Shown: piece after piece, positions 20,208-24,670 of the stretch
Layout: each line of letters begins with the position of its first letter
Numbering within the stretch: position 1 is the first letter of the stretch
DNA from: Bacillus sp. ISL-18
GTDB lineage: Bacteria > Bacillota > Bacilli > Bacillales > Cytobacillaceae
Assembly (NCBI RefSeq): GCF_018613415.1
Contig: NZ_JAGGQG010000024.1
Span: 62,001 to 126,000, forward strand
DNA length: 64,000 bases
Direction of reading: 5' to 3'
Program-made: the position numbers and the translations under genes
Notes under the pieces: generated by a model
What the model was told of the DNA's origin: nothing
The model's input: the letters and a program-made list of their open reading frames with translations, nothing else
Databases searched by the model: none

Positions 20208-20238
20208 GGCTTAGAGGTTCTCCTCTAAGCCCTTTTTT
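20208..20238 (+). terminator. Bidirectional terminator between regulator and nucleosidase remnant
   Basis: GGCTTAGAGG, TTCT, CCTCTAAGCC form a perfect ten-pair hairpin followed by TTTTTTT on the plus strand. On the minus strand GTTTTCTTTTT follows. It serves the GntR gene and the convergent nucleosidase remnant. Confidence 0.85.
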
Positions 20239-20259
20239 TACAGAATGGAGCACCCACTC

Positions 20260-20530
20260 TTATTTTTTTATTGTTGATATATATTGTTTCACAACATCAT
20301 ATACATATTCTTGGTTTGCTGCTGCAGTATTAGGATTATAGGCGCCTCCATTTGTTTTATTGTTAGAGAGGATTCTAATACCTAAAAAAGCTATATCATA
20401 AGCACCGGCAATTTGTACAGCCGAGGCACCTTCCATCTCTTCTACAGATGTACCGTACTTTTCATGAATCCAGTTAATACGGTCCACTTCATTGTTCCAA
20501 AAGTCAGCTGACCCGATCGTCCCTTCACTA
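20260..20530 (-). pseudogene. Truncated copy of the secreted nucleosidase (3' third only)
   Basis: This stretch matches 23258-23526 almost base for base but ends abruptly at about 20530, after CGTCCCTTC. Only the C-terminal part (from about GSADFWNNEVDRINW) remains. The signal peptide, substrate-binding N-terminus and riboswitch leader are absent, so no working enzyme is expected. The conserved Met-Glu-Gly region reads EEMEGASAVQIAG, with some changes relative to the intact copy. The repeat extends leftwards through the terminator, which shows duplication of a block. Confidence 0.9.
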
Positions 20531-21224: not shown

Positions 21225-21332
21225 CTATTTTTCCAAACTATATAATACCATTTTTATAGCAATGATCCATCCTTGTGCACCGAGGAAACTACCAGGAAGC
21301 CCGTTGCCGTACGTCCGCATGGTCTTATTCAT
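21225..21332 (-). CDS. Possible 35-residue peptide in the divergent region, copy A
   Basis: A short frame starting MNKTMRTYGNGLPGSFLGAQ lies upstream of the 169-residue gene on the same strand, with AGGAAT ten bases before its ATG. The second cassette keeps the frame (36792-36920; 42 residues with a different C-terminus). Of four substitutions in the shared 90 bases, two are silent, so the coding evidence is weak. Function unknown. Confidence 0.35.
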   Translation of the reverse strand: MNKTMRTYGNGLPGSFLGAQGWIIAIKMVLYSLEK

Positions 21333-21357
21333 ATGAGCATTCCTATTGTTACAAAAC

Positions 21358-21411
21358 TGACATAATTGTAATCTGGATGACATATAATTTATCAATCACC
21401 TAGGAAGGAGG
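21358..21411 (+). promoter_or_regulatory. Control region of the 61-residue gene, copy A
   Basis: TGACATA occurs twice exactly 20 bases apart (21358 and 21378), the second running into a TATAAT -10 box (21383-21388). A very strong ribosome site (GGAAGGAGG) follows. The same layout is kept before all three gene copies. TGTAAT-N5-TGACAT inside it resembles the 11-bp-phased direct repeats bound by OmpR-type regulators such as WalR, but this is only a resemblance. Confidence 0.55.
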
Positions 21412-21419
21412 AAAAACCT

Positions 21420-21605
21420 ATGGATAATCGTATCTTCTTGTTTCTTGCTACAATTTTATCTGGTTTTGCACTTATAAGAGTTCCTTTAGCTGGTTCATTC
21501 CTTGAAGGCGTTTCACCTGTAACAAATATCCTTGGCATTCTAACCGTTATTGTCTTCTCACTTGTCTTAATTTATAAAGGTGTAAAAGGCTTGTTCCAAA
21601 AGTAA
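21420..21605 (+). CDS. 61-residue two-helix membrane protein, copy A
   Basis: Small protein of unknown function with two predicted membrane helices (about residues 4-22 and 33-54) joined by a short loop (AGSFLEGVSPVTN), and a Lys-rich C-terminus (KGVKGLFQK). The ATG at 21420 has an ideal GGAAGGAGG site. Near-identical copies are at 22813 and 37008. The gene is followed by its own terminator. Its size and hydrophobicity would also suit a regulatory or toxin-like peptide, but nothing shows this. Confidence 0.85.
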   Translation: MDNRIFLFLATILSGFALIRVPLAGSFLEGVSPVTNILGILTVIVFSLVLIYKGVKGLFQK

Positions 21606-21621
21606 AGAGGATTCAGATGGG

Positions 21622-21785: not shown

Positions 21786-21862
21786 GATCTTTCAAATCCG
21801 GTCTTTTTTAAGCCTCTAATTAATATAATGACTTAGTTAGCTTATATTCAGAGGTGAACATT

Positions 21863-22531
21863 TTGGAGATTTTTGGATTGTCTTTTGCGGTTCTTTTGGA
21901 GGTTATTTTAATCAATATTGTATTAAGCGGGGATAACGCAGTTGTAATCGCAATGGCATCACGTAATGTTCCAAAGAAGCAACAAAAGAAAGCCATCTTT
22001 TGGGGAACATTTGGAGCTATTATTTTACGTTTACTATTTGCAACAGCGATTGTTTATCTACTAGCCTTACCTTTCGTAACTTTTATAGGCGGTCTTCTTC
22101 TAGTGTATATTGCCATAAAACTTCTAATAGCTGATGATGAAGACGATCATAGAGAAGGCGGTTCAAGTTTAATTTCAGCTGTCAAAACCATTATTACTGC
22201 TGATGCCATCATGTCTCTTGATAATGTCCTAGCTATTGCTGGTGCGGTTGAAGGAAATATAGCCGGTATAATGATTGGAGTTATTGTTAGTATTCCTCTT
22301 GTTGTTTTTGGCAGCCAATTCATATTAAAAGCAATGGAAAAGTACCCAATCATCTCTTATGCTGGCGCTGGAATATTGGCTTGGACAGCAGGTGAAATGA
22401 TCGTTAGAGAACCAAAGTTCGAATATATTCTTCCAGACGATTTACATTTATTGATTCCTACTGCTATTACCGTTCTCGTCATATGTTTAGGTTATTTATC
22501 CAATAGGATAAAAACAGCTAAAGAAAGTTAA
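21863..22531 (+). CDS. TerC-family integral membrane protein (YjbE-like)
   Basis: Membrane protein of 222 residues with about seven hydrophobic segments. The two family signatures with acidic residues inside the membrane are present: NIVLSGDNAVVIAMA near the start and DAIMSLDNVLAIAGA near residue 115. TerC proteins of Bacillus are linked to manganese export and metalation of secreted enzymes; that is family knowledge, not shown here. I prefer the TTG at 21863 because AGAGGTG lies at the right distance. The GTG at 21854 has no ribosome site. It lies between two copies of the 61-residue gene without obvious linkage. Confidence 0.9.
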   Translation: MEIFGLSFAVLLEVILINIVLSGDNAVVIAMASRNVPKKQQKKAIFWGTFGAIILRLLFATAIVYLLALPFVTFIGGLLLVYIAIKLLIADDEDDHREGGSSLISAVKTIITADAIMSLDNVLAIAGAVEGNIAGIMIGVIVSIPLVVFGSQFILKAMEKYPIISYAGAGILAWTAGEMIVREPKFEYILPDDLHLLIPTAITVLVICLGYLSNRIKTAKES

Positions 22532-22699: not shown

Positions 22700-22714
22700 T
22701 AAACCGTCCCTATG
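22700..22714. repeat. Partial dispersed repeat (AAACCGTCCCTATG)
   Basis: A short remnant of the dispersed repeat core between the TerC gene and the second 61-residue gene. Confidence 0.5.
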
Positions 22715-22750
22715 ACTTTATTTGTAAGAACAATCTCTTCGTTACAAAAT

Positions 22751-22806
22751 TGACATATTCGTAATCATAATGTCATATAATTTATCAATCGCCTAGGAAG
22801 GAGGAA
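22751..22806 (+). promoter_or_regulatory. Control region of the 61-residue gene, copy C
   Basis: TGACATA (22751) and TGTCATA (22771) are 20 bases apart, with TATAAT at 22776-22781 and AGGAAGGAGG before the start. The layout matches the other two copies although the surroundings differ. Confidence 0.55.
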
Positions 22807-22812
22807 GAACCA

Positions 22813-22998
22813 ATGGATAATCGGATTTTCTTGTTTCTCGCTACCATTTTATCTGGTTTTGCACTTATAAAAGTTCCTTTAGCTGATTCATTCCTTGAAA
22901 GCATTTCACCTGTAACAAATGTCCTTGGCATTCTAACCGTTCTTGTCTTCTCACTCGTCTTAATTTATAAAGGTGTAAAAAGTTTGTTCCAAAAATAA
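22813..22998 (+). CDS. 61-residue two-helix membrane protein, copy C
   Basis: Paralogue of the proteins at 21420 and 37008, with a handful of substitutions (KVPLADSFLESISPVTN in the loop). Two membrane helices and the C-terminal KGVKSLFQK are kept. Unlike the other two copies it has no 169-residue neighbour. Its promoter, ribosome site and terminator are conserved with the gene, so the unit appears to have moved as a block. Confidence 0.85.
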   Translation: MDNRIFLFLATILSGFALIKVPLADSFLESISPVTNVLGILTVLVFSLVLIYKGVKSLFQK

Positions 22999-23015
22999 AG
23001 AGGAATCAGATGGGA

Positions 23016-23203: not shown

Positions 23204-23240
23204 AAACAGCTTAGAGTTTCACCACTAAGCCGTTTTCATA
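23204..23240 (-). terminator. Terminator of the secreted nucleosidase gene
   Basis: On the minus strand GGCTTAGT and ACTCTAAGCT form a stem followed by GTTTTCTTTT. A closely related hairpin lies at the same place behind the truncated copy (20208-20231). Confidence 0.7.
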
Positions 23241-23257
23241 GAATGGAGCACCCACCC

Positions 23258-24133
23258 TTATTTTTTTATTGTTGAGATATATTGTTTCACAACATCATAT
23301 ACATATTCTTGGTTTGCTGCAGCAGTATTAGGGTTATAGGCCCCGCCATTTGTTTTATTGTTAGAGAGGATTCTAATACCTAAGAAAGGTACATCATAAG
23401 CATCGGCAATTTGTGCAGCCGCAGCACCTTCCATCTCTTCTACAGATGTACCGTACTTTTCATGAATCCAGTTAATACGGTCCACTTCATTGTTCCAAAA
23501 GTCTGCTGACCCAATCGTCCCTTCCACAACCTTACCTTTCGTATATAAGTGCTTTACCGCATTAGCTGCTGCGAGCAGCTCTTTATCTCCTTCATAGTAG
23601 CGAACCTTATTAGCATTCGCATCTGCTCCGCTTCCTTCAGAAGCCATTAAGTCCATTGGAATCCATTGACTCGGGTCCATTCCCTCGCCTGCATTTTTCG
23701 TTTCTGTTTTTAATGAACCGATGTTGGTTACTCTTTTTCCTAATACAATATCAAATACGTTTAAAGACGGATCATGTCCTCCAGCTGTTCCTTGATTGAT
23801 GATCGCAATCGGCTTATATTTTTCAATCGCCAGAGCTGTAACGGCTGCCGTATTTTCCATTCCCTTGCCTGTTTTTGCAACAATAACAGGATAACCATCC
23901 AGTTTTCCTTTATAGAATACAAAGGTTCCTGATTTTTCTACTTTTACTTTTTCTAATTTCTTCGCGAAATTCTCAGCTTCTATTGGCATTGGACCTTCAA
24001 TAAGAATCGGTCTTGCGGCACCTTCTACTTTTGTTTCATGTAGTAATGAAGACTTCCAGCCTGCGAGCATCGATAAGAGCAAGATCGCAATCGCTGTCCA
24101 TGAGACATACTTGTTTAGAAATCCCTTTTTCAT
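23258..24133 (-). CDS. Secreted or membrane-anchored purine nucleosidase (MTA/SAH nucleosidase-like)
   Basis: Nucleoside phosphorylase/nucleosidase-fold protein of 291 residues with an added N-terminal membrane helix (residues 10-26), so it probably acts outside the cytoplasm. The fold's motifs are present: INQGTAGG (substrate loop, about 112-119), VEEMEGAAAAQIA (the Met-Glu-Gly motif that binds ribose) and FLGIRILSNN, where the usual catalytic Asp of RxxSD is replaced by Asn-Asn. It would hydrolyse purine nucleosides or methylthioadenosine to the base and sugar. A guanine-class riboswitch in its leader supports a role in purine salvage. The ATG follows AAGGGGAA. A truncated copy lies 3 kb away. 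Confidence 0.88.
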   Translation of the reverse strand: MKKGFLNKYVSWTAIAILLLSMLAGWKSSLLHETKVEGAARPILIEGPMPIEAENFAKKLEKVKVEKSGTFVFYKGKLDGYPVIVAKTGKGMENTAAVTALAIEKYKPIAIINQGTAGGHDPSLNVFDIVLGKRVTNIGSLKTETKNAGEGMDPSQWIPMDLMASEGSGADANANKVRYYEGDKELLAAANAVKHLYTKGKVVEGTIGSADFWNNEVDRINWIHEKYGTSVEEMEGAAAAQIADAYDVPFLGIRILSNNKTNGGAYNPNTAAANQEYVYDVVKQYISTIKK

Positions 24134-24185
24134 TAATTATTCCCCTTTTCTCTTGTTGTGGATGTACTCGTTGTTCGTTCCAAAG

Positions 24186-24226
24186 AAAAAGGTCTAGAGC
24201 GGTAGAACCTTTCTACCTCCTAGACC
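24186..24226 (-). terminator. Riboswitch-controlled terminator of the nucleosidase leader
   Basis: On the minus strand GGTCTA...TAGACC with an inner GGTAGA...TCTACC stem is followed by TTTTTCTTT. Its 5' arm (24220-24244) can instead pair with the 3' end of the aptamer (24316-24336). Confidence 0.85.
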
Positions 24227-24323
24227 TACGAAAAGTCAAAGTATCAATAGTTTAGCAAAAAAACCCCTTCACTAAACATACATTGGCAGCCATAAAAATG
24301 ATGGCGTGTTAGACAATACTTTA

Positions 24324-24394
24324 ACTCGTAGTCTAGTTCTTACATTGGGAACCAGGTAGAAACGCTCAGACCCTATTTCTGAGTATATACGAGT
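24324..24394 (-). ncRNA. Purine riboswitch aptamer, guanine class
   Basis: Read on the minus strand, ACTCGTA at 24394 pairs with TACGAGT ending at 24324 (P1). CTCAGA/TCTGAG form P2 with loop AATAGGG (consensus GATATGG). The joining strand GTTTCTACC is the hallmark of purine aptamers. TGGTTC/GAACTA form P3. The base before the 3' P1 strand is C, the residue that selects guanine or hypoxanthine rather than adenine. The P3 loop (CCAATGTAA) is two bases longer than usual. Downstream pairing possibilities fit an OFF switch that acts by termination. Confidence 0.85.
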
Positions 24395-24413
24395 AATGCT
24401 ATTTAAGATGATT

Positions 24414-24419
24414 ACTATA
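24414..24419 (-). promoter_or_regulatory. Possible -10 box for the riboswitch transcript
   Basis: TATAGT on the minus strand, about 20 bases upstream of the aptamer; no good -35 box at 17-bp distance. The rest of 24430-24670 is AT-rich with nothing recognised except one GGTGTGACAGGCAC motif at 24610. Confidence 0.35.
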
Positions 24420-24670
24420 CTAGACTAACAAATATCCAATGGGTTTACAACCGGAAAGGTGAACAATAATTAAAATTAAAAGTAAATCGTTCGTTTTTAC
24501 ATGATAAAAAAACATTTTTTGTGTTTTTTAAGTAAATTAATTCTTATTTAACTTCTTAAATTCATCGACCTATCCCCTTGCTTCTTTATCAGATTTCAAC
24601 AAAACTCAAGGTGTGACAGGCACTAAACTTAAAGGGCAGAGATACAATTACGCTCTGCTCTCTTACTACA

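Follow-up and report, generated by a model that had tools for sequence, protein, structure and literature searches.

A guanine-type riboswitch and a putative PurR site precede the gene for a predicted exported nucleosidase in Bacillus sp. ISL-18

Introduction

Why should a guanine-type riboswitch stand ahead of the gene for an exported nucleosidase? The guanine-I switches known from Bacillus (those of xpt-pbuX, the pur operon, and pbuG) control synthesis, phosphoribosyl transfer, or uptake, whereas the switch considered here, which lies on a 64,000-nucleotide stretch of contig NZ_JAGGQG010000024.1 of Bacillus sp. ISL-18 (the whole of which is referred to as the window), precedes the gene for a hydrolase that appears to leave the cytoplasm. 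Titles and the beginnings of abstracts in the open-licence literature yielded no description of this pairing. In the main texts of PMC3766115 and PMC2258182, as far as these were available, the word "nucleosidase" is absent, and its sole occurrence in the accessible part of PMC11477304 concerns C. difficile and stands with amino acid metabolism, having nothing to do with a purine switch.

Results

The leader carries a guanine-type aptamer and an OFF-type expression platform

A sequence-only reading of the locus had described a guanine-class purine riboswitch, complete with P1, P2, the J2/3 strand, P3, and a guanine-specifying C, and had named a search with the Rfam purine model as one way to check it. 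When the window was searched with Rfam, RF00167 matched over its full length (model positions 1-102) with 74.0 bits, twice the gathering score of 37 (E 2.9e-11), and the individual elements, including the C74 equivalent, were as originally described (Table 1). All switch features of the leader are on the minus strand; L2 of the aptamer reads AAUAGGG. The only other match in the window at gathering level was an epsC RNA (RF01735; 56330-56449, minus strand, 85.6 bits).

Table 1. Features of the nucleosidase locus (window coordinates).
Feature	Position	Strand	Details	Basis
Exported nucleosidase (predicted), PNP_UDP_1 superfamily, 291 aa	23258..24133	-	N-terminal hydrophobic segment, E51, E234, R253, N257	
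Purine riboswitch aptamer, guanine type (RF00167)	24309..24412	-		74.0 bits and covariation
P1 to P1	24324..24394	-		Rfam match and alignment covariation
P1	24388-24394/24324-24330	-		
P2	24378-24383/24365-24370	-		
J2/3	24356-24363	-	GUUUCUAC	
P3	24349-24355/24333-24339	-		
L3	24340..24348	-	CCAAUGUAA, 9 nt (usual 7 nt CCGUAAA)	
C74 equivalent	24331..24331	-	specifies guanine over adenine	sequence and Rfam match
PurBox-like site 1	24486..24498	-	AAAAACGAACGAT, 11/13 to consensus AWWWCCGAACWWT	pair scan
PurBox-like site 2	24455..24467	-	inverted, ATTGTTCACCTTT, 10/13; 18 nt from site 1	
Intrinsic terminator	24182..24227	-	hairpin 24190-24227, U-run 24182-24189	folding energy
Antiterminator, 3' half	24220..24245	-	pairs with 24315-24336	duplex energy
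Remnant of second copy of nucleosidase 3' end	20235..20526	-	94% to 23233-23524	similarity

Covariation was assessed in an alignment of 34 aptamers, of which 29 precede nucleosidase genes (drawn from a set of 30 such aptamers) and five are the other purine switches of the genome. Compensatory changes on both sides were present in 14 of the 21 aptamer pairs, and 95.2% of the cells were paired, which none of 500 shuffles reached. The binding core is that of guanine-I: C74 and a J2/3 of the form GU[U/C]UCUAC occur in all 92 distinct nucleosidase leaders (from 102 hits in the two overlapping genome sets described below), and J3/1 likewise fits this class in its first two bases. The window aptamer is, as judged from these features, an ordinary guanine-I riboswitch, for which binding of guanine is predicted by class.

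Downstream of the aptamer, the terminator hairpin folds at -21.4 kcal/mol (z -3.8; 1 of 200 shuffles was as good). The 3' side of the aptamer can form 22 base pairs with the antiterminator segment, with two bulges (3 and 1 nt) in between, and the whole duplex of -26.6 kcal/mol competes with both P1 and the terminator. Thus, the terminator, the antiterminator, and the OFF-type layout that had been proposed all stood, with the coordinates previously given being right to a base or two. The antiterminator pairing is conserved; it exceeded shuffled sequences (z < -2) in 89 of the 92 leaders, and in 84 of them none of 100 shuffles reached it. The compensatory changes and the conserved antiterminator show that the switch is under selection.

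By its fold energies, the window leader is a balanced switch, as the free fold (-61.8) lacks the terminator and the fold in which the aptamer is forced (-60.7) contains it. Across 91 of the 92 leaders, the terminator was already part of the free minimum-energy fold in 78 and was present in 87 when the aptamer was forced; for most relatives, energies alone consequently do not demonstrate switching, and the decision must be kinetic. A simple scan for terminators and promoters reported neither the leader terminator, the stem of which is interrupted, nor a sigma-A-type promoter for the leader.

Two further structures were noticed. A second antiterminator helix, between GGUAGAAA of J2/3 and UUUCUACC in the inner arm of the terminator, comprises 9 pairs in the free fold of the window leader; at least 5 such pairs formed in the free folds of only 7 of 91 leaders, and in 43 of 91 no more than 5 of 100 shuffles had an equally good complementary run. 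It was left as a curiosity. Separately, the linker between aptamer and terminator contains another hairpin (GUUUAG...CUAAAC; 24250-24277, minus strand), the 3' half of which includes seven consecutive U.

Taken together, the leader is very likely a guanine OFF switch ahead of the nucleosidase gene, with ligand binding and termination expected from its class. When guanine or hypoxanthine is plentiful, the ligand would lock P1, the antiterminator could not form, and the folded terminator would stop transcription ahead of the gene. When purines are scarce, the 3' strand of the aptamer (CUAGACUACGAGUUAAAGUAUU) would instead pair with the 5' arm of the terminator, and the gene would be read. Such a layout in front of a gene for an exported nucleosidase supports the scavenging logic already put forward for this locus, that is, more enzyme at low guanine.

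The enlarged L3 marks a lineage of switches

The sequence-only reading had also called the P3 loop longer than usual. This was confirmed: L3 comprises 9 nt in 80, 8 nt in 10, and 7 nt in only 2 of the 92 distinct nucleosidase leaders. Among 55 purine switches used for comparison, it comprises 7 nt in 54 and 8 nt in the remaining one. The comparison group consisted of the five other switches of the genome, all with a 7-nt L3, 30 high-scoring loci from a search of the genus, and 20 weaker matches among those listed; the 50 genus switches were chosen regardless of the gene they precede, and no nucleosidase locus from the family search is among them. Also in the classical Bacillus guanine-I switches, with which the window shares the aptamer core, C74, and the terminator/antiterminator layout of an OFF switch, L3 has 7 nt.

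The long loop had been taken as a possible sign of a weakened loop-loop contact or of a ligand variant. Neither suggestion gained support. The bases of the L2-L3 kissing interaction are kept, L3 opening with CC in 92 of 92 leaders and L2 closing with GG in 90 of 92 (as parsed). In the purine aptamer, L3 sits far from the ligand pocket, and J2/3 and the first two J3/1 bases, including C74, fit guanine-I in 92 of 92 leaders. Despite the fact that L3 exceeds 7 nt in 90 of 92 nucleosidase leaders versus 1 of 55 other switches, a new ligand, for example, a nucleoside, by which the enzyme would be switched through its own substrate, is therefore very improbable. A precedent for such an arrangement exists in 2'-dG-III of Bacillus sp. 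VT712, which, according to the available part of PMC9295807, has the three-stem purine scaffold and precedes genes for purine nucleoside hydrolases. However, 2'-dG-III deviates in all three junctions, senses a nucleoside, and has been predicted to turn its gene ON, whereas the window leader combines J2/3 and J3/1 of guanine-I with an OFF layout. We consequently rejected the ligand variant as unlikely and read the long L3 as a lineage mark in which the kissing bases were kept. Enlarged as it is, and kept across several genera, this loop offers a natural series in which the tuning of a well-studied riboswitch by its loop-loop contact could be examined.

Switch and nucleosidase gene are an old pair

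A search of 193 genomes of the family (E 1e-40) returned 57 matches in 55 genomes, of which 56 were examined, the 57th being the remnant in the window itself. A switch was present at 43 of the 56: the window locus, all 29 of the 29 best relatives, and 13 of 26 further matches. The 13 switchless loci comprised two copies at 70% identity (L111 and L112), three at 61-62% (L114-L116), one truncated gene (L117), and seven at 41-48% (L118-L124); at none of them did an Rfam search up to E 0.1 reveal a purine switch. In a set of named genomes, 59 of 62 loci carried the switch, the exceptions being Vibrio, Pseudovibrio, and a truncated gene of Neobacillus. Judged by these counts, the switch has long accompanied this gene.

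Mapped onto a tree built from 28 proteins, the switch label has to change four times. In the same tree, the Vibrio and Pseudovibrio proteins (L093 and L094) were placed beside Fictibacillus (96/91), which suggests that the gene was passed to Gram-negatives and the switch lost; no switch was found at these two loci, the two examined. Relatives with 56-63% identity were seen in records of Vibrio, Pseudovibrio, Photobacterium, Pantoea, and Acinetobacter, hits on plasmids included.

The window also holds a remnant of a second copy of the nucleosidase 3' end (Table 1), which codes for 91 aa and near which the Rfam search of the window found no purine switch. A small-ORF region is likewise present twice (21312-21611, 87% to 22705-23004), and this segmental duplication (20235-20526 and 21312-21611) surrounds a DUF6241 gene and a terC-like gene. 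The latter, of the YjbE/TerC family (TIGR03717), lies at 21854-22531 on the plus strand; a yybP-ykoY riboswitch upstream of it was not found between 21100 and 24700, even at E up to 1.

A PurBox pair upstream of the aptamer points to PurR

Upstream of the aptamer is a pair of inverted PurBox-like sites that had been overlooked before. Scored against AWWWCCGAACWWT, which we take to be the PurBox consensus, the window pair reaches 21 of 26, a middling result that 3 of 100 shuffles attained. Across the relatives, when the 170 bases ahead of each aptamer were searched and any spacing from 8 to 30 was permitted, the position of the pair was nearly fixed: in 88 of 92 distinct regions, the best inverted pair had a spacing of 18 or 19 and started 84-101 nt before the aptamer. 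The control with reversed order gave lower scores and scattered spacing (most commonly 29 nt, in 16 of 92). When spacings of 14-20 were considered, no more than 1 of 40 shuffles equalled the pair in 71 of the 92 leaders, which are related and hence not independent.

The same kind of pair, about 90 nt upstream, precedes the genome's own xpt (0 of 100 shuffles), purE (1), and pbuG (1) switches. In the guaA and DUF3100 switch leaders it was not found (81 and 93 of 100 shuffles reached the best score). Of 30 further switches from the genus, 12 are preceded by a pair with a score of at least 22, all at spacing 18, and the genome carries purR (405 bits, cut-off 258.7). The near-fixed spacing and the occurrence of the pair in the xpt, purE, and pbuG leaders suggest that PurR probably also represses the nucleosidase gene, and we regard this second layer of control, which presupposes PurR binding, as highly likely. 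Bound to the two inverted PurBoxes, PurR would probably repress initiation unless PRPP is high.

PurBox pairs were also encountered at loci lacking the switch, namely in three of the seven distant relatives (L118, L119, and L120, with 0, 2, and 0 of 100 shuffles). They were not found upstream of L121-L124 (6, 81, 91, and 70 of 100 shuffles), nor at L111, L112, and L114-L116 (85, 98, 30, 24, and 39). Relatives with the pair alone would be compatible with the aptamer being a relic and PurR being the sole regulator; given the selection on the switch evident from its compensatory changes and conserved antiterminator, this notion is barely credible. Dual control by a guanine riboswitch and PurR is, in fact, on record for nupR of Bacillus thuringiensis BMB171, for which the accessible part of PMC9430930 describes tests of both. 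The likeness lies in the two elements sharing one leader and acting on nucleoside use; nupR itself, by the same text, is a regulator of nucleoside permeases, whereas the window gene encodes an enzyme.

The enzyme is probably not an MTA/SAH nucleosidase

The encoded protein matches PNP_UDP_1 at 139 bits and begins with a hydrophobic, export-like segment. It had been called secreted; export is consistent with this N-terminus, yet release from the cell is the less likely fate, because 61 of 99 parsed genes encode a lipobox-like motif (by a loose pattern) and the window copy has Trp in place of the lipobox Cys (LAGW), which makes an enzyme held at the membrane more likely. In the Vibrio and Pseudovibrio proteins, the N-terminus resembles a plain signal peptide (judged by eye).

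By name, the closest relatives would make it a nucleosidase for methylthioadenosine or S-adenosylhomocysteine (MTA/SAH). The best PDB matches, 5b7g (E 1.4e-61; 211.8 bits) and 5b7n (3e-61), were deposited as such; no paper on these entries or on 5b7p and 5b7q, which belong to the same closest group of solved relatives, was found in the open-licence literature. The protein passes the cut-off of TIGR01704 (MTA/SAH; 82.9 versus 73.8 bits), and four of eight plasmid records annotate the relative as MTA or MTA/SAH nucleosidase, the other four having no feature there. It does not, however, pass the stricter NF004079 (98.5 versus 169 bits), and the genome already has a full MtnN (L182; TIGR01704 364 bits, NF004079 300).

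The active site speaks in part against this name. E51, E234, and R253 are invariant in 28 aligned rows and presumably correspond to Glu12, Glu174, and Arg193 of MtnN (E. coli numbering). The site that we equate with the catalytic Asp197 of MtnN (E. coli numbering) is, in contrast, occupied by Asn257 in the window protein and by Asn in 28 of 28 rows, a change that the sequence-only reading had overlooked. Asp is found at the equivalent site in the genome's MtnN and its two DeoD enzymes, and Asn in its inosine/guanosine-specific PNP (TIGR01700, 383 bits) as well as in all six futalosine hydrolases read out of the 11 above cut-off in 61 genomes of the order. In low-molecular-weight PNPs, specificity for 6-oxopurines is set mainly by this Asn, and its replacement by Asp raises the kcat for adenosine 5,000-fold, as stated in the available text of PMC6128611; this rule comes from phosphorylases, and the window enzyme is a predicted nucleosidase. 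Asp does not exclude 6-oxopurines, as BsPNP233 of B. subtilis, which has Asp, accepts guanosine and adenosine alike (PMC3434127, available part). The 5b7 entries resemble the window protein at this very position: Asn is present in 5b7g and, for these entries, in both sequences shown.

As Asn257 is the residue of 6-oxopurine enzymes, the MTA/SAH annotation is probably wrong, and inosine and guanosine are favored; the active-site residues make 6-oxopurine nucleosides the likely substrate. The competing explanation, in which the same guanine OFF switch controls a true exported MTA/SAH (or adenosine) nucleosidase, would have guanine report general purine status and adenine be the useful product. 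It draws on the names of the PDB entries, one of which (5b7g) has Asn itself, on the TIGR01704 cut-off being passed, and on the fact that adenine also serves as a purine source. Considering the 6-oxopurine pattern in every aligned row, and that regulation through guanine and PurR suits a supply of purine bases better than the recycling of methionine, we deem it unlikely, albeit deserving serious consideration.

Discussion

The model in which a guanine OFF switch, a PurR layer, and an exported 6-oxopurine nucleosidase act together is, in our estimate, correct with a probability of about 0.82. According to this model, an ordinary guanine riboswitch governs a less ordinary gene, and the arrangement is conserved and probably doubly controlled. 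The enzyme, exported and held at the membrane, would probably hydrolyze inosine and guanosine outside the cell. The freed bases could then enter via PbuG and PbuX, whose genes in this genome are likewise preceded by a switch of this type and a comparable PurBox pair.

In this genome, the five remaining purine switches lie ahead of xpt-pbuX, purE, pbuG, guaA, and a gene for a DUF3100 membrane protein (names assigned from Pfam domains and by eye). The last of these loci (L005; 1501-1602 and 23-1475) encodes the DUF3100 protein and a 152-aa protein without Pfam match, neither of which had an NCBIfam match at E 1e-10; on account of its switch, the DUF3100 protein is a candidate purine transporter.

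To a wider proposition we give even odds: that the family annotated as "exported MTA/SAH nucleosidase" in many Bacillota in truth acts on 6-oxopurine nucleosides outside the cell. It would then be an unrecognized branch, of a "mine outside, import inside" type, of the regulon under PurR and guanine riboswitches, and its switches would form a distinct guanine riboswitch lineage in which the enlarged L3 is adapted to this gene. Regulation would here help to correct annotation, as the guanine switch, the PurBoxes, and the active-site Asn all point to purine scavenging, not to methylthioadenosine recycling. If true, the purine regulon of Bacillus would extend from synthesis and uptake to the release of bases outside the cell, and scavenging out there would be linked to the cell's own purine supply.
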